From Opitutia bacterium (GTDB taxonomy: Bacteria; Verrucomicrobiota; Verrucomicrobiia; Opitutales; Opitutaceae): a stretch of DNA of 64,000 nucleotides. The number at the start of each line of letters is the position of its first letter. Position 1 is the stretch's first letter. Shown here in pieces: positions 2,536 to 36,465 of this stretch. The notes under the pieces are model-generated. The model was not told where the DNA came from and ran no database searches. It saw only the letters and a list, made by a program, of their open reading frames with translations. The DNA is taken from positions 1-64,000 of the forward strand of contig JACPIT010000001.1 in assembly GCA_016187945.1 (NCBI GenBank), written 5' to 3'. Position numbers and translations under genes: made by a program.

Positions 2536-3548
2536 GCCACGCCTCCTTTCCGGCCGAAGACGCCGCGCAAGCGCGCGCGGAGTTCTTCCGACTGAATCAG
2601 GCACACCGCGACGATCACGATCGCCTTCGGCACCGGCGCGATCGCAGGCGGCACACCGCGATAATACATCGTGGTCGCGAGCGTCTGGATGAGGACGCTA
2701 CCGAGGAACGTGCCGAGCAACGTGAAGCGTCCGCCGGTGAGCGCGGTGCCGCCGACCACGACCGCGAAGATCGCGTCGAGTTCGGCGTTTTCGCCGGCGC
2801 GGTTGGCGTCGGCCGCGCGGATGTTGGCAGCGGTCAGCGCCCCGACGAAGCCGGCGCACACGCCGCAGAACACGTAAGTCAGCGCCTTGATGCGCTCGGC
2901 GGAAAGGCCGACGAAGCGGCTGGCGGTTTCATTGTCACCGACCGCCTCGATGAAGAGTCCGGCGGCGGTTTTCCGCAGGAAGAAATGCGTCGCGAGAAAC
3001 GCCGCCGCGACGAGCAGCGGCGCTACCGGCAGACCGAGCAGATAACCGTTCGCGAGAAACTCGAAGCCCGCGTGCGAAAAGATGATCACTTGTCCGCCGG
3101 AAATGAGCTGCGCGATACCGCGGCCCGCGACCATCAGGATCAACGTGGCGACGATCGGTTGCAGGCCGATACGCGCGACGAGCACGCCGTTGATACCGCC
3201 CGCCAGCGCGCCGACGCCGAGAGCCGCGAGGAGCGTGAGGACGAGCCCGCCGCCTTGGCCGAGCACGAGGGCGCAGACGGCGCCCGCGATCGCGACGACC
3301 GAACCGACCGAGAGATCGACACCACCGGTCGCGATGACGAGCGTCATGCCGAGGGCTAGGAGCGTCGTGCGCGAGCCTTGAAGCAAGATGTCGATCGGCA
3401 CGCCGTAGAGGTGTCCGTCGCGCCAGCCGAGTTTCAGAAAAGCGGAGTCTGCGAATAAATTCACCGCGAGGAGCGCAACGATGCCGGCCAGCAGCCACGC
3501 GTGGTGACGCAGGTTCGAGCCGGAGGAGGTGGGGCGGGCGTTACTCAT
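2532..3548 (-). CDS. ytfT: Sugar ABC transporter permease YtfT-like
   Basis: First permease of the importer, 338 residues, with many hydrophobic segments. The sequence includes DGHLYGVPIDILLQGSRTT, LALGMTLVIATGGVDLSVG and AIFAVVVGGTALTGGRF, characteristic of YtfT. The open frame extends upstream to 3941, but that part is out-of-frame shadow of the ATPase gene. The start is ATG at 3548, which overlaps the ATPase stop (ATGAGTAA), implying translational coupling. It should pair with the YjfF-like permease to form the heterodimeric channel. Confidence 0.9.
   Translation of the reverse strand: MSNARPTSSGSNLRHHAWLLAGIVALLAVNLFADSAFLKLGWRDGHLYGVPIDILLQGSRTTLLALGMTLVIATGGVDLSVGSVVAIAGAVCALVLGQGGGLVLTLLAALGVGALAGGINGVLVARIGLQPIVATLILMVAGRGIAQLISGGQVIIFSHAGFEFLANGYLLGLPVAPLLVAAAFLATHFFLRKTAAGLFIEAVGDNETASRFVGLSAERIKALTYVFCGVCAGFVGALTAANIRAADANRAGENAELDAIFAVVVGGTALTGGRFTLLGTFLGSVLIQTLATTMYYRGVPPAIAPVPKAIVIVAVCLIQSEELRARLRGVFGRKGGVA
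2537..2552 (-). promoter_or_regulatory. Ribosome binding site deciding the GTG start of yjfF
   Basis: Read on the minus strand, GGAAAGGAGGCGTGGC lies directly upstream of the GTG at 2535, with AAAGGAGG at good spacing. It supports the internal GTG over the upstream ATG at 2604. Confidence 0.65.
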
Positions 3549-7044: not shown

Positions 7045-10000
7045 TCAGTTCGCGCGGAGGGACTCGATGCGGATGTCCGCGGCGGTGAGCGTCAGCGCGA
7101 CGGTGTAGTCGCCGGCGTTCATGCCGATGCCTTCGATGCGCACCTCGCGCGTTTCGCCGGGGCGCGTGGTGGGCAGGCGCACGAGGCGGTGCGCGACGAG
7201 CGAGCCGTCGGACGCGAGCACGCGGAACTCGATGTCGCGCGTCTCGCCGGGATTGGCGTAGCGCAGCGCGAAGTCGTGGTTGCCGCCGAGACCGAGCTGG
7301 ATGGTCCACGAGAGTTCGGCGCCTTTGCGAGTCGCGGCTTCGGCCGCGTAGGTCTGCCAACGAGCGGAGTCGTCGGTAACGCTGCCGAGCGACGGCGTCC
7401 GCGCCGGCGCGACCGGAGTGAGTTGTTGTGGGCGCGGAGGTTTGGCGGAGGGATCGCGCGTGGCGATCGCGATGGCGGAGATCACGGCTTGGTAGGAAGC
7501 GACCCGAGGGAAAGAAACCACGAGGCGACCGCTCTGCGCGCGGGCGGTGAGCACTTTCTTCACGGCGTGCGCGTAACCGGCCTCGGCCCAGAGATCGACA
7601 TCGCGCAGCAGCGTCTCGCCGTTCACGGCCACGTCGAACAAGCGCCAGCCCTTCGCGTCGCCGCCCCCGCGGCCATACCACGGTTCGGCGAAGTAGAGTT
7701 CGACGCGGTGCTCGCCGTCGGGCACGGCGAACTCGTAGCGGAGTTTCTCGCGGCCGTAGCGGTAGGTTTGAAAGAGCGTCTCGTCGCGCGTGCCGCGGAT
7801 CGGTTCGTAGCAATCGCGCTGACTGCCGAAGCGCGGCGGCAACTCGGGATAATCCGCGGCCCACGAGTGCGAGCCCCAGGTGTCGGCTGAGGATGGGGGC
7901 GCTGGATCGGGGTGGAACGCGTTGACCTCAACGCGTTCTGAGCGCGTTAGGGTCAACGCGCTCCACCTTAGATCGCGATCGGCGAACCAAGTTTGCCCGT
8001 GCGAGTCGACAAAGTCGGGGCCTCCGCAGTTCACGTGGTAGAGGTAGTTCCAGCCGAGCTCGCCGCACGTCGATACGGTTTCGGGACCGACGAGCGCGGC
8101 GTGCTCGGCGGCGGGAGCGGGCGGCAGGTTGCGAAGGTAGATCGCATCGCGCGCGACGGTTTTGCCGGCGACGCGGCCTTCGGCGTAGAGGAGGTTTGTT
8201 GCGATCTCGACGTCGTCCCAACGGAACGGGGCGCCGGGGCCGCCCTGCTTGCGGACGCCGAGCGAGCGCGTGCCGAAGCCGTTGAAGAGTTCGACCTCGT
8301 CGCAGTTCGAGTAGACTTCGAGGCCCCGTTTCACGCCGGGCGCGTCCCAGCGGTCGGGCCAGGTGTGCGAGACGATATAAACCACCGGGTCCGTCTTCGG
8401 CGCGTAGCTCGCGCGGTAGAGGAAGAACGCGTCGGTGGGCTCGCCCCAGAGTGTGAGCAGGCCTTTGTTGTTGGCGGGGCCGAGGCGGTCGAGTTCGGCC
8501 CAGCCGTCGGCGCCTTGCTGGCCTTTCGAGCCGATGGCGCGTCCGGGATTTTCATGCGTGGCGAAGAGCCAGTGAAAATGCCCGGGCACTTCGGTGCGCA
8601 CGGATTCGGCGAGGCGGATCTTCGTCGCGAGCAAGGCATCGGCGCGCGACTCGCTGCGCACGCCGTCGGCGACGAAGCCACCCTCTGAGTGCAGACCGAG
8701 GCTGCGCCACGCGCCGTATTCGCCGATGAGGCGCTGGCGGCGCAGGTCGGCCGCGTAGTCAGCGGGATCGCCGCCGTAGGTGCCGGACCAGTTTTGCGGG
8801 ACGTTCCAGTCCGTGCCCTTGCCGCTGTTGCAGGTCGTGACGAGGCGCTGCGACGACGTCGTCGGGTCGAGTTCGCGAATCAGCGCCACGCACTCGGCGG
8901 CGAAATCCGCGGGCAACTTGCTCTCGTTGGCGAGGCCCCAGAGGACGAGCGACGGGCTGTTGCGGCGCTCGCGCACCCACTCGCGGAGGAGCTGCTTGAA
9001 ATTCGCGCGGAACGCCGGCGTATCGAACCAGATTTGCGCGGCGAACTGCGGCCACCACAGCACGCCTTCGCGGTCCCAGTAGTCCTGATAGCGGAGGTTG
9101 TGCGGCTGATGCGCGTCGCGGAAGGCGTTGAAACCGGCGGCGCGAATCTGCCGGACGCGCGCGCGAATTTGTTCGGCGCCGAACGCGTGCGACGCGCCGA
9201 GGTTGTGCTCGTATTCGCAGGTGCCGTTGATGAAGGCCGGCTTTCCGTTGAGCAGGAAAGGCGCGGGCAGTGGCGCGTCGGGCGCGGGCCAGTGGATGGT
9301 GCGGATGCCGAAGGGAGTCTCGACGCGGTCGAGCACGCGATCGCCGTCGCGGATTTCGGTGATAAGGCGGTAGAGTCGCGGGTGTTCGAGCGACCACAGC
9401 TGCGCGGTGGCGAGATTGAGGTCGGACGAAAACGTGGCGGCGTCGCGAATCGTCTGCGTGCCGCGATCGTTCAGCACCGGTCGGCCGTCGGGATCGACGA
9501 TGGTGTGCGTCACCGTGAGCGCGCGTTCGGCGCCGTAATTGCGCACCTCGGTGTGGACGTGCAGCGGCGCGCCGTGCTCGCCGGCGTTCGCGTCGTTCCA
9601 GACGTGAATGCCGAACGGCTCCACGCGCACGTCGTTCGTCGTGACGAGCGTGACCGGACGAAAAATACCCATCGGCTGGCTGCCCTCGGAAAATCCGGGC
9701 GCGGTCGAGCAGCCGCCGCAAACCCAGGGTAGATCGGTGATGCCGGCGGGATGATCGGCACGGACGGCGAGGACGTTGCCCGCGCCGACGTGCACGAGAT
9801 CGGTGACGTCGAGCGTGAACGTGGTGCGTCCGCCGGCGTGTTGGCCGGCGAGCCTTCCGTTCACCCAGACGGCGGCGTAGGAGCCGACGCCCTCGAAAAA
9901 CAGAAACACGCGTCGACCGCTCTCGCTCGCGGGCACGTCGAAACTGCGGCGATACCACGCGACGCCGTGACGGTTGCCGTGCCCGAGTCGGCGCAGGCCG

Positions 10001-10218
10001 GCGTAGTCGTCCCAGTTGTGCGGCACTGCGACGGGCTGCCACGCGGAATCGTCGAACGCGGGTTGCTCGAAGCCGGCGAATCGCGGGTCGTTGGTATCGG
10101 CGGCGGTCGAGCGCCAGCCCTCGTTGAGGGGCCATTCGCGGCGCGGGGAGTCGGTGAGTTGCGCGGTGGCGGCGGCGAGCGAAACGAGAAAAGACAGGGC
10201 AACGAAGGTGGAGCGCAT
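7045..10218 (-). CDS. Secreted glycoside hydrolase family 2 protein with malectin domain
   Basis: 1057 residues. A signal peptide (MRSTFVALSFLVSLAAATAQ) is followed by a GH2 sugar-binding jelly roll (about 30-200), an Ig-like domain (200-305) and the TIM barrel (305-620). The acid/base glutamate is predicted in VLWGLANES (E432) and the nucleophile in LIGEYGAW (E500). A malectin-like carbohydrate-binding domain lies at about 730-890 (NCGGPDFVDSHGQTW, LYFAEPWYGRGG). Close to GH2 beta-glucuronidase/beta-galactosidase types; specificity not resolved. A palindromic element is inserted in frame at residues about 750-769, inside a malectin loop. The ATG at 10218 is contributed by another copy of that element; longer in-frame starts up to 10398 cross repeat DNA and give no signal peptide. 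Confidence 0.9.
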   Translation of the reverse strand: MRSTFVALSFLVSLAAATAQLTDSPRREWPLNEGWRSTAADTNDPRFAGFEQPAFDDSAWQPVAVPHNWDDYAGLRRLGHGNRHGVAWYRRSFDVPASESGRRVFLFFEGVGSYAAVWVNGRLAGQHAGGRTTFTLDVTDLVHVGAGNVLAVRADHPAGITDLPWVCGGCSTAPGFSEGSQPMGIFRPVTLVTTNDVRVEPFGIHVWNDANAGEHGAPLHVHTEVRNYGAERALTVTHTIVDPDGRPVLNDRGTQTIRDAATFSSDLNLATAQLWSLEHPRLYRLITEIRDGDRVLDRVETPFGIRTIHWPAPDAPLPAPFLLNGKPAFINGTCEYEHNLGASHAFGAEQIRARVRQIRAAGFNAFRDAHQPHNLRYQDYWDREGVLWWPQFAAQIWFDTPAFRANFKQLLREWVRERRNSPSLVLWGLANESKLPADFAAECVALIRELDPTTSSQRLVTTCNSGKGTDWNVPQNWSGTYGGDPADYAADLRRQRLIGEYGAWRSLGLHSEGGFVADGVRSESRADALLATKIRLAESVRTEVPGHFHWLFATHENPGRAIGSKGQQGADGWAELDRLGPANNKGLLTLWGEPTDAFFLYRASYAPKTDPVVYIVSHTWPDRWDAPGVKRGLEVYSNCDEVELFNGFGTRSLGVRKQGGPGAPFRWDDVEIATNLLYAEGRVAGKTVARDAIYLRNLPPAPAAEHAALVGPETVSTCGELGWNYLYHVNCGGPDFVDSHGQTWFADRDLRWSALTLTRSERVEVNAFHPDPAPPSSADTWGSHSWAADYPELPPRFGSQRDCYEPIRGTRDETLFQTYRYGREKLRYEFAVPDGEHRVELYFAEPWYGRGGGDAKGWRLFDVAVNGETLLRDVDLWAEAGYAHAVKKVLTARAQSGRLVVSFPRVASYQAVISAIAIATRDPSAKPPRPQQLTPVAPARTPSLGSVTDDSARWQTYAAEAATRKGAELSWTIQLGLGGNHDFALRYANPGETRDIEFRVLASDGSLVAHRLVRLPTTRPGETREVRIEGIGMNAGDYTVALTLTAADIRIESLRAN
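7911..7969. repeat. Palindromic element family A, copy 1 (in frame inside GH2 gene)
   Basis: A 59-bp palindrome with ends GGTGGAACGCG and CGCGCTCCACCTT and two internal sub-palindromes (cgcgttgacctcaacgcg; gcgcgttagggtcaacgcgc). On the minus strand it encodes RWSALTLTRS-ERVEVNAFH, stop-free, matching the peptides from copies 3 and 4 in other genes. Confidence 0.85.
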
Positions 10219-10374
10219 TGACCTCAATGCGCTCAAAAAATCGCCGCAGCGTGGGTAGCGCCGGTCTCTGACCGGCGGAAGGGAGGCGTGGCGTTTCGAC
10301 GCCGGTTGGAAACCGGCGCTACGCCAAAGGGCGACGCAGCCGACGAGCGCGTTGGGGACAACGCGCTCCACCTC
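10205..10374. repeat. Palindromic element family A, copy 2, split by a nested family B element
   Basis: The left half (10205-10235, AAGGTGGAGCGCATTGACC and onward) and right half (10345-10374, gcgttggggacaacgcgctc then cacctc) match the two halves of copies 3 and 4. About 110 bp that include a complete family B palindrome separate them. The left half supplies the ATG of the GH2-malectin gene at 10218. Confidence 0.75.
10255..10322. repeat. Palindromic element family B, copy 1 (nested in family A)
   Basis: A 68-bp inverted repeat beginning GTAGCGCCGGTCTCTGACCG and ending GGTTGGAAACCGGCGCTAC, with central gcgtggcgttt. The same core is present at 13359-13427. Confidence 0.8.
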
Positions 10375-10394
10375 GGAAATACTCACTCCGTCGC

Positions 10395-13223
10395 TCACGG
10401 TTGGTCGAGCAGGCGGATCACGAGTGAGCCTTTCAGTGGCCCCGTGATGTTCTGCGGCTGGCCTTGCGGGCCGAGGTTCGAGGGCTCGGAGTTTTTCGTG
10501 CCGATGGCGGGAATCACTTGGTAGACGCCGAGGCCGAGTCGCGGGAGGATGAGCACGGGGTTGTTCTTGCCGTCGCGCGGCGCGTAGACGCCGACGAAGG
10601 GCGAGCCGCCGTCGTTAAGGAACGCGAAGCGGCCCTCGGTCGTCGTGAACGCCATCCATTCCCAGCGCGAGAACCAGCCCTTGAACTCCGGGTAAGTCCA
10701 CGAGATGCCGGGGACGGCGTCGTTGTAGTCGACGTCCCAACGACCGAGCGACACGCCCTTGAGGCGGTTCTGCCAGACGCGATACGGGCCGGCGCCGAAC
10801 CACTCCTTGGATTTCATTTTCTCCTCGGGGTAATCGAACTCGAGGCCGAGCAGGTCGACGAGGCCGGGGCCGGCGAATTCGTAGTCGAGGCGCACGTCGC
10901 CGTCGGGCGAGATCGTCCAGCGCATCGAGCGCACGCCGCCGTCGAAGGCGGCGGTGACGATGGCGCGGTCGCCATCCATGCGCGAAGTAAACTCGACGAG
11001 CTTGCCGACCGGCGCCGCGAGCGGCTCGAGCAGGCGGTTGTTGCGTTTGTAGGCGACGAGACGGGGACCGCGTGCGAGCGAGATGCTGCGGCCGTCGCGC
11101 TCGAGACCGGCGAGCAGGCCGGTGGTTTTGTCGAAGCGCACGGCGTTGCGGCCGGAGGTGGCGACAATTTCGTTGCCGCGCTCGGCGAGGGTGACGGCGG
11201 CTTTCGCTTCCTGCGCGTGGCCGATGGCGGCGGCGCCGCTCTTCCAGCGCCACGACCACGTCCACAGTTCGCGGGCGCGGGAGTCGATCGCGGTGACGTA
11301 GAGCACGTCGGCATCGCGCCAGTCGGCGGGCAAGGGGAGTTTCAGTTCGCCGTCGGTGCGAGCGGCGAGGTCCGGGCCGGCGAAGCGGCCGTGCCCGAGC
11401 AGCGTGCGATGAAACATCGGCGCGCCGGGCGGAGCGAGTTTCAGCAGGCGCCACTCGAACGTGACGGACGAGAGACTGAGAAAATCGTAGCGGTTGCGCA
11501 CGGGCAGCGTGCCGGCGAAATCGGCGGGCAAGTCGCGCAGCGGAATCTGCACGGGCGACCAGATTTCGCGCACGGTGTAGAAGCTGCCTTCCTTTTCGTG
11601 GCGCGGCCCGAGCAGACCGTCGGGCGCGAGGTCGCGCCGCGAGTCGAGTCGTCCGCCCTCGTCGGTGCGTGCGACCGACTCGTCCATCCACGACCAGAGG
11701 AAACCGCCGGCGGCGTGCGGCTTCTCGCTCATGAGCGGCCAGAAGTCGTCGAGTCCCGCACCGTGACCGCCGTCGAAGAGACCGTGGAGAAACTCCGTCG
11801 GCATGAAAATGTCGGGGCCGTTGGCGTAGCGCTGCGTGTCGGCGTATTCGCGGTAGTGTTTCGTGTTCATGCCGCGGAACGACTCGGCCCACGGGTGGAG
11901 CACGGGGCGTTGCTGCGGGTCGTGCCGGGCGAACTCGTCGTCGTTCTCCGGATTTTCGCCGCCCTCGTTGCCGTTATCCCAAAAGAGAATGCTCGGGTGG
12001 TTCACGTCGCGCGCGAGCATTTGCGCGATGAGGCAGCGGCCGGTCGGCGTGTCGTAGCAACCCTGCCAGCCGGCGAGCTCGTCGAGCACGTAGACGCCGG
12101 CTTCGTCGCAGAGGTCGAGGAACTCGGCGTCGGGTGGGTAGTGCGACATGCGGACGGCGTTCATGTTGGCCTCCTTCATGAGGCGAATGTCCTCGCGGTG
12201 GCGCTCGGGAGAGAGCGTGCGGCCGGTGTCGGGCCAGAAGCTGTGGCGGTTGGCGCCCTTGAGCACGATCTTGCGGCCGTTGAGATAGAGGCCGTCGCCG
12301 GGGCGCAGCTCGAACGTGCGGAAGCCGAAGCGCTGCGTGATCGTGTGGCCTGACGGCGCGAAGGTGCCGGCGCGCAGCGTGACGTCGACGAGGTAGAGAT
12401 TGGGCGTCTCGGCGGTCCAGGTCGCGGGCGAGGGGATTTGGCCGCGGAGTGTGACCTGCTTCGAGCCACTCGGGACCGCGGCGGAGATCGGTGCGCCAAT
12501 GGGATCGCCGGCGAGCGTCTTCACTTGCGCGACGACTTCGTTGCCGGCGGGGAGATTGCCGCCGAGGAAGACGTCGACGCGAAACGCGCCGTCAGCACGC
12601 GCGTCGATCGCGACGCGGTCGATGAACTGCATCGGCAGCGCCTCGAGTCGCACGGGGCGGAAGATGCCGCCGAAGTTCCAGTAGTCGCCGATGCGCTCGG
12701 CGCGGTTCACGCTTTCGTTGGCGGAGCGTTTGCTGACGGTGACTTCGAGCTGGTTGGGGACGTCGAAGCGGAGCTTGTCGGTGATGTCGTAGCGAAACTG
12801 GTAGAAACCGCCCTGGTGCACGGGGCCGGCGAGTTGGCCGTTGAGTTTCACTTCGGTGTCGGTGAGCGCGCCGTCGAACACGAGACGGACGACGCGGCCG
12901 CGCCACTCCCTCGGCACGGTGAACTCGCGGCGGTAGATGCCTTGTTCGTCGGGCGCCTTGGGCATTTGCGGCATGCGTTTCGAGGGGCGCGACTCGACGC
13001 CGTATTCGTAGGTGCCGAAGCCTTGCTGTTCCCAGCAGGACGGCACGGCGATCTTGGACCACACGCCGCTGTTGCGTCCGCCGGTGCAGAAGAAATCCCA
13101 CGTGACGGCGTCGTGGCTGCCGGTGCCGGAGAGGTAGAGGGACTCCGTTTGGAGCGTCGATGGCGACGCTCCGAACGAGGAGAGAGTGAGGGGGAGCGAG
13201 AGGAGGGCGGCGAGAAGGCACAT
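10395..13223 (-). CDS. Secreted beta-galactosidase, glycoside hydrolase family 2
   Basis: 942 residues with an N-terminal signal peptide (about 19 residues) and a LacZ-like domain order: sugar-binding domain, Ig-like domain, TIM barrel (about 305-600), second Ig-like domain, and a C-terminal beta-gal small-chain-like domain. LacZ-type motifs include GANRHSFWPDTGRTL, MNAVRMSHYPPDAEFLDLCDE, the acid/base E420 in DNGNEGG and the nucleophile E477 in MPTEFLHG. The family hydrolyses terminal beta-galactosides, plausible for pectin galactan side chains. The ATG at 13223 gives the signal peptide. Upstream and downstream gaps are filled with palindromic elements, so the gene may have its own promoter. 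Confidence 0.92.
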   Translation of the reverse strand: MCLLAALLSLPLTLSSFGASPSTLQTESLYLSGTGSHDAVTWDFFCTGGRNSGVWSKIAVPSCWEQQGFGTYEYGVESRPSKRMPQMPKAPDEQGIYRREFTVPREWRGRVVRLVFDGALTDTEVKLNGQLAGPVHQGGFYQFRYDITDKLRFDVPNQLEVTVSKRSANESVNRAERIGDYWNFGGIFRPVRLEALPMQFIDRVAIDARADGAFRVDVFLGGNLPAGNEVVAQVKTLAGDPIGAPISAAVPSGSKQVTLRGQIPSPATWTAETPNLYLVDVTLRAGTFAPSGHTITQRFGFRTFELRPGDGLYLNGRKIVLKGANRHSFWPDTGRTLSPERHREDIRLMKEANMNAVRMSHYPPDAEFLDLCDEAGVYVLDELAGWQGCYDTPTGRCLIAQMLARDVNHPSILFWDNGNEGGENPENDDEFARHDPQQRPVLHPWAESFRGMNTKHYREYADTQRYANGPDIFMPTEFLHGLFDGGHGAGLDDFWPLMSEKPHAAGGFLWSWMDESVARTDEGGRLDSRRDLAPDGLLGPRHEKEGSFYTVREIWSPVQIPLRDLPADFAGTLPVRNRYDFLSLSSVTFEWRLLKLAPPGAPMFHRTLLGHGRFAGPDLAARTDGELKLPLPADWRDADVLYVTAIDSRARELWTWSWRWKSGAAAIGHAQEAKAAVTLAERGNEIVATSGRNAVRFDKTTGLLAGLERDGRSISLARGPRLVAYKRNNRLLEPLAAPVGKLVEFTSRMDGDRAIVTAAFDGGVRSMRWTISPDGDVRLDYEFAGPGLVDLLGLEFDYPEEKMKSKEWFGAGPYRVWQNRLKGVSLGRWDVDYNDAVPGISWTYPEFKGWFSRWEWMAFTTTEGRFAFLNDGGSPFVGVYAPRDGKNNPVLILPRLGLGVYQVIPAIGTKNSEPSNLGPQGQPQNITGPLKGSLVIRLLDQP

Positions 13224-13256
13224 GGGAGAACGCGAAAGGATCGATCTTTATTGTGA

Positions 13257-13332
13257 CTGTAGGGCCGGCGCTGGTCGCCGGGCCGGTATGGTGCGAGCGT
13301 CGACGGCCCGGCCACAAGGGCCGGCCCTACAG
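13257..13332. repeat. Palindromic element, family B-like, between two glycosidase genes
   Basis: A 76-bp inverted repeat with ends CTGTAGGGCCGGC and GCCGGCCCTACAG. It lies in the gap between the unassigned glycosidase and the GH2 beta-galactosidase. Confidence 0.8.
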
Positions 13333-13358
13333 TTCTGGGTGAGGTCGACGGGGCGGGA

Positions 13359-13427
13359 GTAGGGCCAGTCTGTGACTGGCCCAAGCGCAGCGTGGCGTTT
13401 TATGGGCCGGTTGAAAGCCGGCCCTAC
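13359..13427. repeat. Palindromic element family B, copy 3
   Basis: A 69-bp inverted repeat from GTAGGGCCAGTCTGTGACTG to GGTTGAAAGCCGGCCCTAC with the same gcgtggcgttt centre as the copy at 10255. It lies 27 bp from the neighbouring palindrome. Confidence 0.8.
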
Positions 13428-13441
13428 TTTCGGAGCGGAGA

Positions 13442-16069
13442 TCATGGCTGGATGATGCCGAGAATGGCGAAGGCGCCGGTGCCGCGCACGTCGAGAGTGT
13501 GCGTGCCGGCGGGATAATCGAACGCGTGGACGTTCAGCGGTGGGAGCGAGTCGAACTCGACGGCGCGCACGATCAACGCTTCGACGCCGCCGCGTTCGCC
13601 GGCGGTGGCGTCGGTTTCGAGTTCGGGCGGCTTGCGCCATTCGGGGCCGTTCGCCTGAAAATAGCCGACGAGCACGCGCACGGGCTTCGCGCACGAGAAG
13701 CGGAGCGCGAGCGGCGCGGTGGCGTCGCGTGTCGCGGCGAGCGAGAGTTTGATGCCTTGCAGACCTTCGAGTTCGGGCGCGGTGGTCGTGATGACGGCGT
13801 GCGAATCGCTGAAGGCGGTGTTGCCGATCTGCACGGTGAACGTCTCGAGGCCGGGCGTGAGCAACTTGAAGTCAGCCGGGGCGAACGGTGCATGCGTGCG
13901 CGTCGCACCGGGATTCTGGAGCGCGGCGACCTGAGCGCGGAAATCGGCGAGCTCCTTTTCGTAGACGGGCAGCAGTTGCGTCCAGTGATAGTTCGCGGCT
14001 TTGCCGCTCGCGCCGCCGGGCAGCGGCACGCGGCGCTGGGCGGTCTGCATGGAGTTGGCGGCTTTGTAGGTGGCGGCGGTGAGTCGGGCGAGTTCGCGGA
14101 AATGCTGGGTGCTGAGTGCGAGCGCCTGCTCGGCGCGCTGCATGTGCGCGAGCTTCTTGGTCCGCTGATAGCGTAGAACTTCGAGCGCCGCGGTGGCCTT
14201 CTCGCCGTAGAAGAGCGAAAGCGCGCGGATGCAGACGATGTCGTTGTAGAGGCGCTGAAACTCAGCGAGGTTCTCAGTCACGAGCGGCGCGGCTTCCGTG
14301 ATGGCGGCAACGGCGCGCGCGGAGAATTGGTCGATCTCGGCGACGATCTGCGGCGGCGTCTCGCCCTCGTGCGGCAGGCCTTTTGCCTCGCGGGCGGCGA
14401 ATTCCTTGAGGCGTTCGCCGGGGGGCGATTGCGATTCCCAGAGCTCGGGAAACTCGCGGTATTTTTCCGGGCGGACGAGTTGGTCGAGCGTCATGCCGAG
14501 CGACATCGTTTGGCGGTTGCCCTCGGTGATGCCGAAGCGGCGCAGGATGCGCGGCGCGCATTCGCCGGCGGCGTTGTAGGCGTCGAGGATGGGCGCGGCG
14601 GCTTCGCGCGAGCCGTAGTGCTCCGCGAGGCGGCCGATCCAGTGGTCGCGCTCCGCGAGGGCGGGGCGGTCGGGATTCCAGGCGTAGCGGGCCCAGGCTT
14701 CGAACCAGATCCAGTCGCGTTGCCATTGGTTGAGTGCGCTGGCCGATCGGTAGGGCGAGTCGTCCCCGACGAGCCGCGGCGCCGATCGGAGCGGCTCATC
14801 CGGAGGATTCGCCCTACCTTGAGTCACGACGTCCGGCGAATATGGCCAATCCCAGTAGAAGAGCGGGTAGAGGTGCAGGCCGCGGGCGCCGAGGCGGTCG
14901 CGCATCGCGACGACGGATTTCTGAATGAACTCGGTGGCGCCGTAGCGGAACGGTTCGAGGTTCGCGAGGATGTGGACGTTGGCGATGTGCGTGGAGCCGA
15001 GGCGGCTCATCGCGAGGTGGAGTTGTTGGCGCACGCCGCGCGGCTCCCACGTGGTGAGCGACTCGCCATTGAATTTCGCCTCGGTGTAGAGATTGCGGTA
15101 AACCTTCAGCGCTTCGGGCATCACCTTCGTCGCGTCGGTCGCGTGGGTGCGCAGCACGATGGGCGGCTCTTCGGTGAGACCGGCGGCGGCCATGCCGTCT
15201 TTCACGCCGGGGAGGATGACCTCGGTCATCCAGCGCGTTTGCGTTGCTTGATCCTGCAACGCCTCGCCGAGGCAGGACATGAGGCCGACGTTCGGAAACT
15301 CGCGCACGAAGGCGGCGATGGATTTGCGCGTGTAGTCGGCGGCGAGGTCGTTCCAGGCGCCGAGTTGCGTGGAGAGTCCGTGTTTTTCGGCGAGCGGTTT
15401 CGAAAGGAGGATGCTGTAGAACTGTTGAACGAGCCAGATGCCGCGGCGGTCGCACTCGGCGGCGAGCCAGCGGAACATCTCGACGTTGCGCGCGAAGGTT
15501 TCCGGCGGGACTTCGAGCGCCTCGGGATAGTCGGGCAGGCGCACGAGCGAGGCGAACGGGTGGCCGTTCCAGAGGTAGAGCGTATTCATTCGCAAGCTCG
15601 CGAGGTAGTCGAGGTATTCGGTCCAGTAGGCCTTGTCGTAGAAGAACGGGAATTCCTCGGGTGTGTAGGGATACTCGTAGACCTTGCGGCCGGGGAGCAG
15701 GTAAGTCTTCTGCATCCCGATGCACGGGCCGCGCAGGACGAATTGCGGGGCGTCGGCGATGCGCTGCGGGCTTTTGAGCCAGCCCGCGCGCACGCGGTCG
15801 GCGAGTTCGAGGCAGCCGTAGAGGGCGCCGGAGTCGTCGGCACCGGTCACCGTGATCGTGCCGTCAGCGCCGGCGTCGATCGTGAAGCCTTCGGGGCGAG
15901 CGGTGACCGCAACGACTTTGATGACGATGTGCGGCGCGGTCGTCGGCAGTGCGCGTTCGAGTTGTTCGATGCCGTAGCGGATGCGCGGCGAGGCGCCTGC
16001 GGGCATTTCGATCGCGGCGCGCGCGGCGATGGCGCAACAGAGGACGGCGAAGACGAGCCCGAGGCGCAT
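13442..16069 (-). CDS. Secreted glycosidase-like protein with GH20/GH67-type N-terminal domain, family unassigned
   Basis: 875 residues. A signal peptide (MRLGLVFAVLCCAIAARA) is followed by a domain like the non-catalytic N-terminal module of GH20/GH67/GH84/GH115 enzymes (RYGIEQLERALP, TGADDSGALYGCLELADRV). A TIM-barrel-like region follows (MNTLYLWNGHPFASL, GIWLVQQFYSILLSKPL, LMSCLGEALQDQ, HLYPLFYWDWPYSPD), then an alpha-helical region and a beta-rich C terminus. The catalytic residues cannot be assigned confidently. The frame stays open far upstream into the symporter gene, but ATG 16069, 2 bp after the symporter stop, gives the signal peptide. A palindromic element lies in frame at residues about 418-440. 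Glycoside-active by context; substrate unknown. Confidence 0.75.
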   Translation of the reverse strand: MRLGLVFAVLCCAIAARAAIEMPAGASPRIRYGIEQLERALPTTAPHIVIKVVAVTARPEGFTIDAGADGTITVTGADDSGALYGCLELADRVRAGWLKSPQRIADAPQFVLRGPCIGMQKTYLLPGRKVYEYPYTPEEFPFFYDKAYWTEYLDYLASLRMNTLYLWNGHPFASLVRLPDYPEALEVPPETFARNVEMFRWLAAECDRRGIWLVQQFYSILLSKPLAEKHGLSTQLGAWNDLAADYTRKSIAAFVREFPNVGLMSCLGEALQDQATQTRWMTEVILPGVKDGMAAAGLTEEPPIVLRTHATDATKVMPEALKVYRNLYTEAKFNGESLTTWEPRGVRQQLHLAMSRLGSTHIANVHILANLEPFRYGATEFIQKSVVAMRDRLGARGLHLYPLFYWDWPYSPDVVTQGRANPPDEPLRSAPRLVGDDSPYRSASALNQWQRDWIWFEAWARYAWNPDRPALAERDHWIGRLAEHYGSREAAAPILDAYNAAGECAPRILRRFGITEGNRQTMSLGMTLDQLVRPEKYREFPELWESQSPPGERLKEFAAREAKGLPHEGETPPQIVAEIDQFSARAVAAITEAAPLVTENLAEFQRLYNDIVCIRALSLFYGEKATAALEVLRYQRTKKLAHMQRAEQALALSTQHFRELARLTAATYKAANSMQTAQRRVPLPGGASGKAANYHWTQLLPVYEKELADFRAQVAALQNPGATRTHAPFAPADFKLLTPGLETFTVQIGNTAFSDSHAVITTTAPELEGLQGIKLSLAATRDATAPLALRFSCAKPVRVLVGYFQANGPEWRKPPELETDATAGERGGVEALIVRAVEFDSLPPLNVHAFDYPAGTHTLDVRGTGAFAILGIIQP
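14749..14818. repeat. Palindromic element family C, copy 1 (in frame inside glycosidase gene)
   Basis: A 70-bp inverted repeat with ends GGTAGGGCGAGTCGTCC and GGAGGATTCGCCCTACC. Its minus-strand translation, GRANPPDEPLRSAPRLVGD, interrupts an otherwise enzyme-like sequence. It is near-identical to the copy at 19485. Confidence 0.85.
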
Positions 16070-17640: not shown

Positions 17641-19593
17641 CTAAGGGGACGGCACCGGCGTGAGCGTGACGTCGTCGATCAAGAAGGAAACTGCGGGCGC
17701 TTTCTCGTCGGCGCCGGGCAAATCGCGTCCGCCGAACGGACGCGTGCGCGCCGGACCGGTGCGGAAGGAGAGTCGCTCGACCGTGCGTGTCGCTTCGGTG
17801 GGACCGATCGCGCGCGGCGTGGCAGGTTGGCCGTTGATCGAAAGATCGCCGCGATCGGAGGTCGGCTTCGGTGACGCGTCGTAGGCAAACGTGAGCCACT
17901 CGTCGGCGCGGTAGGCGCCGTTGTCCGTCCACACGCCCTCGTGCGACACCCACACGCGGCCGTCTTCGCCGAGCGCGAGCAGGAGCTGGCGATTGCCGTG
18001 TGCGTCGGTCAGCTCGATTTCGAGACGCGCGTTGGTCTGGCGCGCGAGAACTCTGAATTCCGCTTTCAGGCCGTGCGTCTCCGGGAACACGCGGACGGCG
18101 CGGGCGTAGTCGCAGGGATCTTCGTCGCGGAGTTCGAGGGCGTGGCCAGACGACGGATGTTGGCTCGTAGCGGAACGCGTGAGCGTTTCGCCGGGCGAGG
18201 CGAAAGCCCCACTGCTTCCGCCACCGGCCGAGACGACGCGCACGGGCGCCCAGAGCGGGCTGTAGATGTTCCAGGCGGGCGGCGGCGCACCGACGGCATC
18301 GGCTTCGAAGTCGTCGCGCACGGGCGCGGTCGTCGCGCCGACGATCGGCGTGGGCACGCGCGCGATCCAGATGTCTTCCTTGTTGACGGAGTAGGTGACC
18401 CACGTGGCGCGCGCGTGGTCGGGCGGCGTGCCGTTGCCTTCGGCGATGGTGCGGACGTATTGCGGGCCGAGGTTCTTGAAATTGCCCGCGAAGCGCTGAT
18501 CAGGCGTCTCGCTGTGCACCGCGAGGAGCTGCGCGAAATGCTCGCAGTCGTCGCTCGTGATCACGGCGAGCGGGAAGCGCAGACGATTGGTCGGATTAAG
18601 GAACAGCGCGAAGCGTCCGTCGCCGGTGCGGGTGAGCGCGTATTTCGAAGCGTTGTTCGGGAGATTCGTGCCGAACTGTTTCTCGGTCCACGTGCGACCT
18701 TCGTCGCGGGTGAGAGCGACGAGCGCGTTTTTCCAGACGCCGAGCACGGCGCCGTCGGGACGGTGGACGAACGACAGCGCCTTGCCGCGCACGGTGTAGA
18801 AGCCGCTCTCGTCGAGCTGGTCTTCCTCCCACCACTGCGCGGTCATGAGTTTGTTCCCGAGCAGCGCGTCGCACGCGGCGACGAAGCCCCGGTCGGGCGA
18901 CGCGGTGTAGAGCGGGTAGGGCGGCGTGAAGGCGGCGAACGCCTGCTTCGCGTTCAACCGGATGAAATAGATCGGGCCGAGCGTGCCGTCCTCGTGCACT
19001 TCGCGCACGGCGCGGCCGATGCCGGTGCCGTCGTTGGGCTCGGGCGGCTTCCCGTAGAACGCCAGCGCGAGCAGCCGGCCGTCCGGCGCGACGTAGAAGC
19101 CCATGCGTTGGTGCGCGAGCGTCTGCGTGCCGTCGGGCAGCGCGAACGGCGGGAAGATCACGCGCGGCGTATCCCACGTCACGCCGTCGGCGGAACTCGT
19201 GAGCCAGGTCGAGCCGGCGCCTTGGTGTTCGCCGACGGGATTGCTCAAAAACTCGACGTAGAACTTGCCGCGCCACCACGCGAGCATCGGCTGATGAAAA
19301 TACGTGTGGCCGAGCTGATCGACGTTGGCGGGATGCGTGCGGTTGGCGCGGTAGATTTGGATGCTCTGCACGCCGACGACCGGCCGCAGCCCGCCGTCGG
19401 CGGTGGATTCGGCGCGTTCGGGGCCGGTGAACACGAACGGCGGCGTGGAGGGCGCGGCGAACGCGGTCGTGATCAGCAGTGCCGCCAAAGGTAGGGCGAG
19501 TCGTCCCCGACGAGCCGAGCGCGCGCGAGCGGGCAGCGGCTCGTCCGGAGGACTCGCCCTACCTTTGGAAACGCGTGCGACGACGGAGAGCAT
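17641..19593 (-). CDS. Secreted sialidase-like beta-propeller protein with C-terminal lectin-like domain
   Basis: 650 residues. The N-terminal about 430 residues carry BNR-like blade motifs (SSADGVTWDTPRVIF, LTRDEGRTWTEKQFG, VWKNALVAL, AVITSDDCEHFAQLL) as in six-bladed exo-sialidase-like propellers. The C-terminal about 190 residues resemble a concanavalin/LamG-type jelly roll (DDFEADAVG, LKAEFRVLARQTN, FLIDDVTLTPVP). The function could be a glycosidase or lyase of the sialidase superfamily; true sialidase activity is not implied. The signal peptide's h-region (LPLAALLITTAFA) is preceded by an unusually long Arg/Pro-rich n-region encoded by a palindromic element (residues about 9-36). Start ATG 19593, 9 bp after the pdxA2 stop. 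Confidence 0.75.
   Translation of the reverse strand: MLSVVARVSKGRASPPDEPLPARARSARRGRLALPLAALLITTAFAAPSTPPFVFTGPERAESTADGGLRPVVGVQSIQIYRANRTHPANVDQLGHTYFHQPMLAWWRGKFYVEFLSNPVGEHQGAGSTWLTSSADGVTWDTPRVIFPPFALPDGTQTLAHQRMGFYVAPDGRLLALAFYGKPPEPNDGTGIGRAVREVHEDGTLGPIYFIRLNAKQAFAAFTPPYPLYTASPDRGFVAACDALLGNKLMTAQWWEEDQLDESGFYTVRGKALSFVHRPDGAVLGVWKNALVALTRDEGRTWTEKQFGTNLPNNASKYALTRTGDGRFALFLNPTNRLRFPLAVITSDDCEHFAQLLAVHSETPDQRFAGNFKNLGPQYVRTIAEGNGTPPDHARATWVTYSVNKEDIWIARVPTPIVGATTAPVRDDFEADAVGAPPPAWNIYSPLWAPVRVVSAGGGSSGAFASPGETLTRSATSQHPSSGHALELRDEDPCDYARAVRVFPETHGLKAEFRVLARQTNARLEIELTDAHGNRQLLLALGEDGRVWVSHEGVWTDNGAYRADEWLTFAYDASPKPTSDRGDLSINGQPATPRAIGPTEATRTVERLSFRTGPARTRPFGGRDLPGADEKAPAVSFLIDDVTLTPVPSP
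19485..19568. repeat. Palindromic element family C, copy 2 (in signal-peptide n-region)
   Basis: An 84-bp inverted repeat with ends CCAAAGGTAGGGCGAGTCG and ACTCGCCCTACCTTTGG. On the minus strand it encodes KGRASPPDEPLP followed by ARARSARRGR, placed between the first residues and the hydrophobic core of the sialidase-like protein's signal peptide. Confidence 0.88.
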
Positions 19594-30152: not shown

Positions 30153-31220
30153 ATGCTCACGCATTTCTTTCGGAGCCTGGGTTCGGGGTGGAGCGCGTTG
30201 ACCTCAACGCGCTCAGGCCCGGAGCGTCTTGGGGTCAAGCCGCTCCACCTCGTGCTGTGCGCGCTCGCACTGATGTGTGCGCCGTTTGCGCGGGCGGCTG
30301 ACGGGGAGCCGCTGCCGGAGACCTGTTTCCTCTTCGCCTATTTCTATCACGACAAGGAGGCCGATGGCTTCCGCCTCGCGTGGAGCCGCGACGGCCATGC
30401 GTTCGAGATGTTGAACGCCGGCAAGCCGCTCCTCACACCGACCGCCGGCGAGAAGAAAATCATGCGCGATCCGTGCCTCTACCGCGGACCGGAGGGAACA
30501 TGGCATCTCGTTTGGACCACCGGCTGGACGGGTCGCGACATCGGCTACGCGTCGTCGCGCGACCTCGTGCATTGGTCGGAGCAAAAAACGCTGCCGGTGA
30601 TGGCGCACGAGCCGCAGGCGCAGAATTGCTGGGCGCCGGAGATCGTGTGGGACGACGCGCGGAAGCGTTACCTGATTTTCTGGTCGACGACGATCCTCGG
30701 CCGTTTTCGCGAGACCGAACTCTCCAACAAGCGCCCGGAGCGCAACCACCGCATCTACGCGACGACGACGACGGACTTCGTCACCTTAGAGCCGACGCGT
30801 CTTCTCTACGACGGCGGCTTCAACACGATCGACGCGAACCTGCTGCGCGACGACGATGGCCGCTGGCTGCTGTTTGTGAAGAACGAGACGGTGCAGCCGA
30901 AAACGGAGAAGAACATCCGGATGATCCGCGGCAAGAGCGCCGAGGGGCCGTGGAGCGAGGCATCGCCGCCGCTGACCGGCAACTACTGGGCGGAGGGCCC
31001 GGCAGCGATCAAGGTCGATGGCGAATATCGCGTCTACTTCGACAAACACATGCTCGACGCCATCGGCATGGTGCGCTCGCGCGATCTCGTGCACTGGGAG
31101 GATGTGAGCGAGCGCGTGAAGATGCCCGCGCACGCGCGCCACGGTTGCATCGTGGCAGTCTCGCGCGCCGAGATGGAGAAACTGCTCGCGGTGTGGCCGG
31201 TCGCTTCCGCTCAGCCCTGA
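30153..31220 (+). CDS. Secreted glycoside hydrolase family 43-like protein
   Basis: 355 residues forming a five-bladed propeller. The expected GH43 residues are visible: catalytic-base aspartate D106 in IMRDPCLYR and acid glutamate E163 in CWAPEIVWD, plus the YASSRDLVHWSEQ blade motif. GH43 enzymes remove arabinose, xylose or galactose residues, fitting pectin or hemicellulose breakdown. The signal peptide core (LVLCALALMCAPFARA) is separated from the first residues by a stretch encoded by a family A palindromic element (residues about 12-33). It starts 2 bp after the previous stop, and the MFS gene follows by 4 bp. Confidence 0.85.
   Translation: MLTHFFRSLGSGWSALTSTRSGPERLGVKPLHLVLCALALMCAPFARAADGEPLPETCFLFAYFYHDKEADGFRLAWSRDGHAFEMLNAGKPLLTPTAGEKKIMRDPCLYRGPEGTWHLVWTTGWTGRDIGYASSRDLVHWSEQKTLPVMAHEPQAQNCWAPEIVWDDARKRYLIFWSTTILGRFRETELSNKRPERNHRIYATTTTDFVTLEPTRLLYDGGFNTIDANLLRDDDGRWLLFVKNETVQPKTEKNIRMIRGKSAEGPWSEASPPLTGNYWAEGPAAIKVDGEYRVYFDKHMLDAIGMVRSRDLVHWEDVSERVKMPAHARHGCIVAVSRAEMEKLLAVWPVASAQP
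30187..30250. repeat. Palindromic element family A, copy 3 (in GH43 signal-peptide region)
   Basis: A 64-bp palindrome with ends GGTGGAGCGCGTTGACC and GGGGTCAAGCCGCTCCACCT. On the plus strand it encodes WSALTSTRS...LGVKPLHL in frame. Confidence 0.88.
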
Positions 31221-33667: not shown

Positions 33668-36465
33668 AGGCGCCGTCTCGTCTGAGGCTCCGGAGGTGGA
33701 GCAACTTGACCTCAAGGCGCTCTTACTCGAAGCGCGTTGGGGTCAACGCGCTCCACCTTCTGCTGCTCGCGTTCGTCAGCCTGTTTTTTGTCGCGCCGGC
33801 CTCCGCCGCGCTGCGGGTAGTGAATCTGAAATGCGAGCACGCCGTCGATCCGCTCGGCGTCGACGCCGCCACGCCGCGCTTGAGCTGGCAACTGTCCGAC
33901 GACGACTCGGCTGCGCGCGGCTCGCGACAGACCGAGTGGCAGGTGCTCGTCGCATCGACCCCCGAATTGCTCGCTGCCGACCGCGGCGACCTCTGGGACA
34001 GCGCCCGTGTGGCGTCATCGCAGACGGCGTGGATCGGTTACGCGGGCAAGCCGCTCGTGAGTTCTCAGCAAGTTTTCTGGAAAGCGCGCGCCTGGGACGC
34101 AGCCGGTGCCCCGACGCCGTGGAGCGCAACCGCGACTTGGACGATGGGCGTGCTGCGCGCCGAAGACTGGCACGCACGGTGGATCGAGGCCGCACCGAAC
34201 GCCGAGGGCGCGCTGATGCGGCACGAGTTCATGGTGAAACCCAGCCTCAAGCGCGCCGTGCTGCACGTGTCCGGCCTCGGGCAATACGAGGCGTTTCTCA
34301 ACGGCGCGAAAGTTGGCGTCGATCTGCTCACGCCGGGCTGGACCGATTACCGCGACACCGTGCTCTACGACACGCACGACGTCACCGCGCAGCTCGCGCC
34401 GGGCGCGAACGCCATCGGCCTCGCACTCGGACGCGGCATGTATCACGTCGAGCGCAAGGATGGGCGCTTCGCGAAGTTCACGAGCGACTTCGGCGAGCTT
34501 CGCGCCATCGCGCAGCTCCGGCTCGAATACGCGGACGGTTCGGTCGAGTTTGTCGGCACCGACGAAACCTGGCGCACGCATCCCGGTCCGATCACGTGGT
34601 CGAGCCTCTACGGGGGCGAGGACCACGACGCACGACGGCTGCCGGCGAACTGGAGTCGCGTGGGCGCCGCGGGTGACGGCTGGATGCCGGTGAAACTCCC
34701 GACGGCGCCCATCGGCGCGCTGCGCTGCGCATCGTTCGCTAACGAGCCGCTGCGTGCGATCGAAACGCGCGAGCCGGCCAGCGTGCGCACGCTCGCGGAC
34801 GGTGCGGTGCTTTTTGATTTCGGACAGAATGCGTCGTTCATGCCGCGTCTCACGGTGAGCGGCCCGGCTGGCTCGACCGTGCGGCTCGTGCCCGGTGAGG
34901 TGGTGAAGGAAGACGGCAGCATCGAGCGCGGCACGATGGGCGGGGCGCATCGCGGCAGCGCGTGGTGGCAATACACCAAGGCCACCGACGGTGAGGAGAC
35001 CTGGTTCCCGCAGTTCTACTACGTCGGCTCGCGCTACGTGCGCGCGGAGCTGAAGCCCGCGGCGCCCGGCGGCGCGACGCCGAAGATCGAGCGTTTGCAG
35101 ATGGTGATCGTGCACGCGGCGGCCGAGCCGGTCGGCGAATTCGCCACGTCGAATCCGCTGCTCAACCGCATCCGCGATCTCGTGCGGTGGGCGCAGCGCT
35201 CGAACCTGGTCTCGATCCTCACGGATTGCCCGCATCGCGAGAAGCTCGGCTGGATCGAGCAATTCCACCTCAACGGTCCGGCGATTCGCCACGAGTTCGA
35301 CGTCACGCGCACCTACGCCAAAGGCATGCGTGACATGGCGGAGGCGCAACTGCCGGACGGTCTCGTGCCAAACATCGCGCCCGAGTTTGTGGAGTTCAAA
35401 GGCGCGTTCCGCGGGGCGGCAGAGTGGGGCGCGGCGTTCCTGCTCGTGCCGTGGCAGCAGCGCGACTTCACCGGCGACGAATCGCTACTGCGCGAATTTT
35501 ATCCGGCGATGCAGCGCTACTTCGCCTACCTCGAGACGCGCGCGGACCACGACATCCTGAGCGATGGTCTCGGCGACTGGTATGATTACGCGATCAACAG
35601 TGGCAAACGCGCGAACCTGACGCCGCCTCCGATCACGGCCACGGCGTTCTTCTACGACGACGCGCGCACGCTCGCGCGCACCGCGGCGTTGCTCGGCAAG
35701 CCGGACGACGCCGCGCGCTACGCGGCGCGGGCCGAGGAAATCCGTCGCGCTTACGTTGCGAAGTTCCGCCGCGCCGACGGTCTCTACGGCACCGCGTCGC
35801 AGGCGTCGCTTTGCATTCCGCTCGTGATGGGACTCGTGGAGGAGCGCGACCGCGCGGGCGTGCTCGCGGCGTTGATTCGCGATGTGGAGGAAAAAGGCTA
35901 CGCGAGCGCTGGCGACATCGGTTTTCGCTACCTGTTGCTCGCGCTTGCGGAGGCCGGACGCGACGACGTCATCTATCGCCTCGTCAACCAGGACGAGAAG
36001 CCCGGTTACGGTTATCAGCTCAAACTCGGCGCGACAGCGCTCACGGAGTCGTGGCACGCGTCGCTCGGCGCGTCGCACAATCATTTCATGCTCGGGCAAA
36101 TCACGGAGTGGTTCTACGAGCGCCTTGCCGGCATCGCGCCTGATCCGCAGCGACCCGGTTTTCAGCACGCGATCATCCGTCCGCAGCCGGTGGGCGATTT
36201 GGCGTGGGTCGAGGCGACGCAACGCACCTTGCCGGGCGAATATCGGATGCGGTGGGAGCGAGGTGCGGAAAAGTTAGCGCTGCGCGTCACTGTTCCTGCA
36301 AACGCGAGCGCCACGGTCTACCTCCCGACGCGCGACGCTGCGGCGATCCGCGAGAGCGGCCAGACTCTAGGACAGACTGTGGGGGCAAAATTCGTTCGCA
36401 TCGAAGGGGACCGTGCGGTTATCGAAGTGGAGTCAGGCGTCTACTCCTTCGAAACCCCATGGTGA
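33664..36465 (+). CDS. Secreted alpha-L-rhamnosidase, glycoside hydrolase family 78
   Basis: 933 residues with the usual GH78 order: Ig-like N domain (LRVVNLKCEHAVDPLGVD), carbohydrate-binding jelly roll (LHVSGLGQYEAFLNGAKVG), further beta domains, an (alpha/alpha)6 catalytic barrel and a C-terminal beta sandwich. Catalytic signatures: DCPHREKLGW (521-530; candidate acid E526 or E532) and ESWHASLGASHNHFMLG (base E795). It releases L-rhamnose from rhamnogalacturonan or other rhamnosides. The signal peptide core (LLLLAFVSLFFVAPASA) follows an n-region encoded by a family A palindromic element (residues about 11-32). ATG 33664 overlaps the previous stop; the next gene overlaps its end by 7 bp. 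Confidence 0.93.
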   Translation: MKAPSRLRLRRWSNLTSRRSYSKRVGVNALHLLLLAFVSLFFVAPASAALRVVNLKCEHAVDPLGVDAATPRLSWQLSDDDSAARGSRQTEWQVLVASTPELLAADRGDLWDSARVASSQTAWIGYAGKPLVSSQQVFWKARAWDAAGAPTPWSATATWTMGVLRAEDWHARWIEAAPNAEGALMRHEFMVKPSLKRAVLHVSGLGQYEAFLNGAKVGVDLLTPGWTDYRDTVLYDTHDVTAQLAPGANAIGLALGRGMYHVERKDGRFAKFTSDFGELRAIAQLRLEYADGSVEFVGTDETWRTHPGPITWSSLYGGEDHDARRLPANWSRVGAAGDGWMPVKLPTAPIGALRCASFANEPLRAIETREPASVRTLADGAVLFDFGQNASFMPRLTVSGPAGSTVRLVPGEVVKEDGSIERGTMGGAHRGSAWWQYTKATDGEETWFPQFYYVGSRYVRAELKPAAPGGATPKIERLQMVIVHAAAEPVGEFATSNPLLNRIRDLVRWAQRSNLVSILTDCPHREKLGWIEQFHLNGPAIRHEFDVTRTYAKGMRDMAEAQLPDGLVPNIAPEFVEFKGAFRGAAEWGAAFLLVPWQQRDFTGDESLLREFYPAMQRYFAYLETRADHDILSDGLGDWYDYAINSGKRANLTPPPITATAFFYDDARTLARTAALLGKPDDAARYAARAEEIRRAYVAKFRRADGLYGTASQASLCIPLVMGLVEERDRAGVLAALIRDVEEKGYASAGDIGFRYLLLALAEAGRDDVIYRLVNQDEKPGYGYQLKLGATALTESWHASLGASHNHFMLGQITEWFYERLAGIAPDPQRPGFQHAIIRPQPVGDLAWVEATQRTLPGEYRMRWERGAEKLALRVTVPANASATVYLPTRDAAAIRESGQTLGQTVGAKFVRIEGDRAVIEVESGVYSFETPW
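33694..33759. repeat. Palindromic element family A, copy 4 (in GH78 signal-peptide region)
   Basis: A 66-bp palindrome with ends AGGTGGAGCAACTTGACC and GGGGTCAACGCGCTCCACCT. It encodes RWSNLTSRRS...VGVNALHL in the same frame as the copy in the GH43 gene. Confidence 0.88.

Follow-up and report, generated by a model that had tools for sequence, protein, structure and literature searches.

REPINs and RAYTs are already known from the work of Bertels and Rainey (2011; PMC3116915), the sections of which considered here describe inverted pairs of REP sequences, present in hundreds of copies, and RAYTs lying beside their own REPs. Intragenic REPs have been described by Di Nocera et al. (2013; PMC3733652): in the parts of that paper covered here, Opitutus terrae is rich in GTAG repeats and has the most intragenic GTAG repeats, and its GTAG-20 elements are mostly headed by GTGG. 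REPs at the N-terminal ends of genes were compared there with shorter homologues and were considered to be possibly untranslated, the starts of the genes being misannotated. The classic translated palindromes are the Rickettsia palindromic elements (PMC10969869), which are short mobile palindromes translated in-frame within proteins (PMC10969869; PMC3733652). Among these, the RPE-4/RPE-6 repeats belong to the CGTC group, for which no transposase association is given in the same parts of PMC3733652.

The locus described here lies within the first 64,000 nucleotides of contig JACPIT010000001.1 of an Opitutaceae genome (assembly GCA_016187945.1), and this whole stretch is referred to as the window. 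Its elements resemble the REPINs of Bertels and Rainey in being inverted REP pairs of which there are hundreds of copies and in having RAYTs beside their own REPs, here for families B and C. They differ from what the sections considered of that paper describe in their host, in their location at the 5′ end of the coding sequence of genes for secreted proteins, in that one is nested within another and in that no RAYT was found for family A. With the O. terrae GTAG REPs they share an intragenic, N-terminal location and a GTGG-headed family. In the parts of Di Nocera et al. (2013) covered, however, the N-terminal cases are mostly treated as possible misannotation, signal peptides and stop–start overlaps are not mentioned, and the word ‘nested’ does not occur. 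The likeness to the Rickettsia elements, as far as the sources considered describe these, is that short mobile palindromes appear to be translated in-frame within proteins; unlike RPE-4/RPE-6, those described here are GTAG/GTGG REPINs, with RAYTs for two families and a bias towards the n-region of signal peptides. No report of REPs or REPINs located at signal peptides was found in the open-licence PMC literature. Intragenic REPs in Opitutus are already published, and the signal-peptide location is, as far as found, the new part. The main finding is that REPINs turn up repeatedly in the part of genes that encodes the signal peptide; at two such loci of the window, orthologues have an empty site.

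The palindromes are REPINs of families A and B

An earlier note on this DNA had described a family A element split into two halves some 110 nt apart. The two arms are real (10206–10234 and 10345–10373, 86% complementary, with 110 nt between them), but each half is a whole REP, consisting of a GTGG head and a perfect 10–11 bp hairpin (10208–10234 and 10345–10371), so that A is an inverted pair and not a divided palindrome. The first REP (10207–10234, plus strand) belongs to an ATG subfamily and has a GGTGG head followed by a GAGCGCATTG/CAATGCGCTC hairpin. The second (10345–10372, minus strand) is inverted, with a GGTGG head and a GAGCGCGTTG/CAACGCGCTC hairpin. Together they form a family A REPIN of 166 bp (10207–10372, without strand), enlarged by a nested element from the usual 55–85 bp. 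The nested element is the complete family B element that had been reported between the A halves. It occupies 68 bp of the A spacer (10255–10322, without strand), with arms at 10255–10277 and 10300–10322, and is likewise an inverted REP pair, with a GTAG head (GTAG ... CTAC). The A and B palindromes are REPINs, that is, inverted pairs of REP hairpins with their GTAG-type heads outward.

The relative of the B element reported at 13359–13427 was also found; it is a B REPIN (without strand) upstream of the first GH2 gene and is not in frame with an earlier start. Adjoining it, 5′ of the same gene, is an inverted repeat of 30 nt (13256–13333, 90% complementary, GTAGGGCCGGC type), which is perhaps another REPIN subfamily.

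Both families are abundant. In the window the A REP pattern, with up to three mismatches, has 11 matches where 0.17 are expected, and the B pattern has 4 where 0.05 are expected. In the genome as a whole (5.47 Mb, up to two mismatches) there are 220 A REP sites (reversed control 0), 160 B REP sites (control 1) and 101 sites of a third family, C (GGTAGGGCGA..; control 0). The measured A REPINs are 55–85 bp long in 47 of 49 cases, the others being one of 104 bp and the window copy of 166 bp. Their lengths bunch at 57, 62–63, 75 and 84 bp. Most are divisible by three (34 of the 49, and 20 of 29 in contiguous samples), the window copy not being among them and A REPINs within one length class being related rather than independent.

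REPINs are mobilized by RAYTs, and RAYT transposases presumably move those described here. The window genome has two RAYTs, each beside its own family (L003 with B elements and L006 with C elements), and both score above the NCBIfam REP_Tyr_transpos cut-off. Family A has its 220 REP sites in the genome, yet none of the RAYT loci examined is flanked by A REPs. None was found at the eight Y1_Tnp loci of the window genome, the assembly of which is 95.7% complete with some loci cut by contig ends, nor were A REPs found near the 27 Y1_Tnp loci that were fetched out of 61 in 12 genomes of the same genus.

Nesting and order of insertion

Among 112 REPINs in 2.02 Mb, no nested case was found other than the B REPIN in the A spacer, in a search that took in pairs of up to 170 bp for A, 150 bp for B and 130 bp for C. 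The exact A-to-B inner junction pattern has eight matches genome-wide, and only at the window locus do these flank one B element. An intact unit of about 170 bp was looked for elsewhere and was not found; given the pair lengths and the junction pattern, the idea that the 166 bp recur as one element is rejected. At C9:1050722 an A-to-A distance of 320 bp is accounted for by two A pairs of the ordinary kind and does not mark a nest.

Subtraction of the 68 bp of B from the 166 bp of the whole leaves 98 bp, and if a 10-nt flank, GCCAAAGGGC (10323–10332, plus strand), is also taken away the remainder is 88 bp, close to the 83–85 bp class of A REPINs. This flank is common to a minority of other B REPINs and may have arrived with B, although on a weak basis, as its pattern has 22 matches against 13 in the reversed control. 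It is likely that A was inserted first and B later, as had been proposed earlier, because removal of B leaves a near-ordinary A length, because orthologues with an empty site have neither element (see below) and because no second nested case was found.

One A REP is of the ATG type and the other of the GTTGGGGAC type, a difference in subtype that might be expected if two A REPs and a B REPIN had each landed independently, side by side, with no strict nesting. Mixed-subtype pairs, however, also occur in A REPINs of ordinary length (L009 and L031). The inverted orientation, the 88-bp remainder and the outer flanks, which end in A here as in 74 of 98 A REPIN outer flanks, all fit one A REPIN, and three independent landings are considered highly improbable. 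Insertion of B into an existing A REPIN is the order adopted in what follows.

The GH2–GH2 junction and the start of the GH2-malectin gene

The nested REPINs lie at the 5′ end of a GH2-malectin gene (7045–10398, minus strand; Glyco_hydro_2 domains and Malectin), which follows an upstream GH2 gene of the same direction (10395–13223, minus strand). The TGA stop of the upstream gene (10395–10397, minus strand) overlaps a GTG (10396–10398, minus strand) to give GTGA, and orthologues identify this GTG as the ancestral start of the GH2-malectin gene and likely still its start. In a survey of 24 loci, seven besides that of the window match the upstream GH2 gene to its last residue at the junction. 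Six of the seven orthologous junctions are without either element (two of them, L100 and L134, are identical in letters). Five of the empty junctions read CCGTGA, with the GTG starting the signal peptide, and one (L129) reads TGA-GG-ATG. According to the orthologues, the ancestral junction is therefore one in which the stop of the upstream GH2 gene overlaps the GTG start and the signal peptide follows directly, with no spacer. The sister species G001 (L102, same genus) has a family C REPIN instead, which begins at a distance of 21 nt from the same GTG, counted from its first base. There, too, the frame is open, and that GTG is the only in-frame ATG, GTG or TTG before the hydrophobic core, with one CTG at codon 40.

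In the window the frame from GTG 10398 runs without a stop across A and B, over 60 codons, into the GH2 protein. The 166-bp element is not a multiple of three, and the frame is kept only with the 26 nt that lie between the GTG and the element. Beyond GTGAGC these 26 nt differ from the empty site of G007, and other small changes must therefore have occurred there. In a simulation of an A REPIN with a nested B, built from elements of this genome, the element was open in a random frame with a frequency of 0.215; with the further demand that its length be a multiple of three, the frequency was 0.066. There are six in-frame ATG, GTG or TTG codons from 10398 to 10218, of which only GTG 10398 is conserved in orthologues.

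The last of these is an ATG within the A REP stem (10218–10216, minus strand; MRSTFVALS...), which reads CAATGCGCTCCACC. The earlier note had derived it from the end of the element by a single C-to-T change and had seen in it a repeat becoming the start codon of the gene. The ATG does lie in the A REP end. It is no local change, however, since both sides of the stem are altered together (ATTGNNNNCAATGCGCTCCACC) and 24 exact copies exist, which makes it a stem-compensated A subfamily. It is also in frame and could serve as the main or a restart site: the REP would then give a working start, the upstream part would be a leader and the GH2 gene would be uncoupled from its neighbour. From this ATG alone, MRSTFVALSFLVSLAAATA would make a textbook signal peptide, with GAGG 3 nt upstream, whereas a start at the GTG gives a very long n-region. 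The same ATG is, however, enclosed in a 10-bp RNA stem with a predicted energy of −16.6 kcal/mol, and the GAGG, which is very close to it, spans the end of the stem and the loop. A donated start would imply that the older one had been lost or put out of frame; the ancestral GTG has been conserved in frame, and the 60 codons upstream of the ATG are open and in frame although they would not be needed (compare the simulated 0.215). Nor does such a donation account for G001, which has no ATG, or for family B cases without internal starts (see below).

Other loci bear on the donated start in both directions. A gene at L295 (L075/L295), which we take from its sequence to be GH43-like, is in frame with the ATG of an A REP, but it has a nearer ATG 3′ of the element. 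When the 30 ATG-pattern loci (2 of them with ATC instead) are read in the orientation of the GH2 gene, only the GH2 gene, the GH43-like gene and L072 look real, as judged by eye from base composition and sequence; L072, like L075/L295, has a nearer ATG than that of the REP. Read the other way, the ATG subfamily supplies an in-frame ATG at L077, L079, L082, L089, L090 and C1 1743, with a signal-type segment after it in L079, L089 and L090. Against this, an ATG also precedes the element in L077, L079, L089 and L090, though not in L082. The five L loci come from a hand-picked set of 21 and are not used as counts. These further in-frame REP ATGs make a donated start slightly more credible and the explanation preferred below slightly less so.

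The old GTG is ranked first because it survives in frame, because the REP ATG is sealed in a stem and because G001 has that GTG only. To judge from the sequences, translation probably still begins at the old, stop-overlapping GTG; initiation at the ATG of the REP would come second and is a rather doubtful candidate, as is the donation of a working start codon as a whole. Part of the earlier observation is thus confirmed and part of its interpretation supported: the ATG is a possible start, but a repeat turned translation start is not the likeliest reading.

A third possibility is that the hairpins are an untranslated element of the mRNA, which stabilizes the upstream message or lowers downstream expression from a spacer between the two GH2 genes, the open frame being accidental. 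The structure predicted for 10204–10340 is very stable (−72.3 kcal/mol, z −6.45), and REPs usually sit between unidirectional or convergent genes, according to the parts of PMC3733652 considered. The ancestral GH2–GH2 junction, however, has no spacer; the frame is open and in phase in the window genome (G000), in G001 and at a GH78 locus; and an excess of signal-peptide genes (both described below) is not predicted by an untranslated element. This possibility is regarded as quite unlikely, and translation from the old GTG through the REPINs is the preferred reading.

In-frame REPINs inside genes

A second A REPIN lies within the GH2-malectin gene (7911–7967, without strand; 57 bp, equal to 19 codons). 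It encodes RWSALTLTRSERVEVNAFH in-frame in the malectin part, the malectin match being residues 726–915 of the protein counted from ATG 10218, and six of six aligned orthologues are without the element. The gene must be read through this REPIN. Inside the GH43-like gene of L295 a C REPIN is in-frame (3400–3465), and the match to the relative G035 is interrupted between residues 571 and 593 of the query. The sequences thus indicate that ribosomes read REPIN hairpins in this genome, unless the GH2-malectin and GH43-like genes are dead. Three sites have a frame open through the element and orthologues without the element: the N-terminus of the GH2-malectin gene, its malectin insertion and the N-terminus of a GH78 gene.

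L295 also has an A REPIN (1570–1681) after another GTGA stop–start overlap, upstream of the GH43-like gene and with an in-frame REP ATG; the relative G035 has a compact signal peptide. In the window, a family C REPIN (14749–14818) is apparently in frame inside a gene with a coding part extending from about 16075 to 13442 (peptide ..ANPPDEPLRSAPRLVGDDSPYRSA..).

REPINs recur in front of signal-peptide cores

A second locus of the window repeats the arrangement. The ATG of the GH78 alpha-L-rhamnosidase gene, at 33664, overlaps the upstream stop (ATGA), and an A REPIN (33695–33757, without strand) lies 31 nt from that ATG and just 5′ of the signal-peptide core LLLAFVSLFFVAPASA, which follows directly. 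The sole in-frame start inside this REPIN is a TTG. The same gene in G001 and G007, both of the same genus (86% and 83% identical), retains ATGA, with a short signal peptide directly after it and no element. At two further sites of the window a REPIN is followed by a signal-peptide core and starts are present on either side of the element: an A REPIN at 30187–30249 (without strand; core LVLCALALMCAPFARA), with an ATG 34 nt before and a GTG 2 nt after, and a family C REPIN at 19490–19563 (without strand; core LAALLITTAFAA), with an ATG 30 nt before and a TTG 1 nt after.

The placement was counted in one genome, in 2.02 Mb of contiguous sequence made up of 1.224 Mb that includes the window and a further 0.8 Mb. 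Genes were called by codon usage with a home-made finder (906 and 634 genes), and from the total of 112 REPINs 73 genes were obtained with a REPIN ending near the 5′ coding end. The B-inside-A row of the window locus was excluded from these 73, and an A element that lies between two divergent genes (C1 1743) was counted for each of them. A REPIN was classed as in-ORF if the reading frame stays open across it and has an in-frame start at most 90 nt before the element, so that only the part upstream of the element is used. The genes were then scored, by a simple hydrophobicity rule, for a hydrophobic segment at most 40 codons after the element.

A hydrophobic segment of signal type comes next in 15 of the 21 genes with an in-ORF REPIN, and in 12 of these 15 it starts at most 11 codons away. 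The corresponding figures are 12 of 52 for the other 5′-end REPINs (Fisher p = 3.1e-4) and 492 of 1384 for control genes (p = 1.1e-3). Variants with a fixed window give p values from 0.00097 to 0.0072 against the other REPINs and from 0.0012 to 0.021 against controls. The remaining six in-ORF cases fall under the hydrophobicity threshold, one of them (C2 92386) narrowly (score 1.7). In an earlier classification, in which the position of the hydrophobic segment set the limit for finding later starts, a choice that favoured the hypothesis, the strictly forced class alone gave 4 of 6 (p = 0.12), and the 0.8-Mb sample alone, which is small, gave 2 of 2 N-terminal against 2 of 16 5′UTR-like cases.

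Two family B cases, C2 92386 and C6 383275, have no other in-frame ATG, GTG or TTG before the hydrophobic part, and would need n-regions of about 45–55 residues. What follows the REPIN is presumably a prepilin-like leader (FTLIE) at C1 79615, and at C6 189704 a sequence that we take to be lipobox-like (LALAGC). With odds judged only a little better than even, we propose that three REPIN families in Opitutaceae preferentially persist at one site within coding sequence, after the start codon and ahead of the hydrophobic core, in genes with signal peptides, lipoprotein signals or prepilin leaders. The REP-encoded peptide would be discarded on export, which would make the n-region a refuge for mobile DNA, and the long n-regions and start-proximal mRNA hairpins could tune secretion.

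Proposed history of the locus

The identity of the elements, their nesting, the empty sites, the open frame and the recurrence are established; which start, GTG or ATG, is actually used we infer from the comparisons above, and the GH2 product is presumably exported and cleaved. The explanation that accounts best for the whole, held with modest confidence on the favourable side of even, is that A and then B were inserted after the GTG, in the n-region, which is a safe place, and that both are translated from the old GTG as an extension removed with the signal peptide.

Of the two adjoining GH2 genes, the second would have received a family A REPIN in its n-region coding sequence, a few codons past its GTG. 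A family B REPIN would later have entered the A spacer, the reading frame having remained open or been restored. Translation would most likely start at the old GTG 10398 (or at 10386 or 10371), where a ribosome coming off the upstream GH2 gene would initiate on the overlapping codon and open the hairpins. The translated REPINs would then form an n-region extension of about 60 residues, which signal peptidase would cut off with the signal peptide, leaving the N-terminal end of the mature enzyme unaltered.

More generally, REPINs may hop into gene junctions, and an element that lands a few codons into a gene would usually destroy the gene or make its protein longer. The n-region of a secreted protein would tolerate lengthening and be removed on export, so that in-frame insertions could survive; the n-region of secreted proteins may therefore be a safe place for in-frame REPINs. 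A REPINs may be suited to such in-frame survival through their lengths divisible by three.

What appeared as the curiosity of a start codon made by a repeat thus becomes a testable rule, that selection lets mobile DNA live in a peptide that is discarded. If this is true, caution is called for, as starts at such sites may be misplaced by programs for gene calling and signal-peptide prediction, and the loci would offer a natural series of much lengthened signal-peptide n-regions in which the limits of export could be studied. It would also help to explain how genomes of this kind tolerate so many intragenic REPs.
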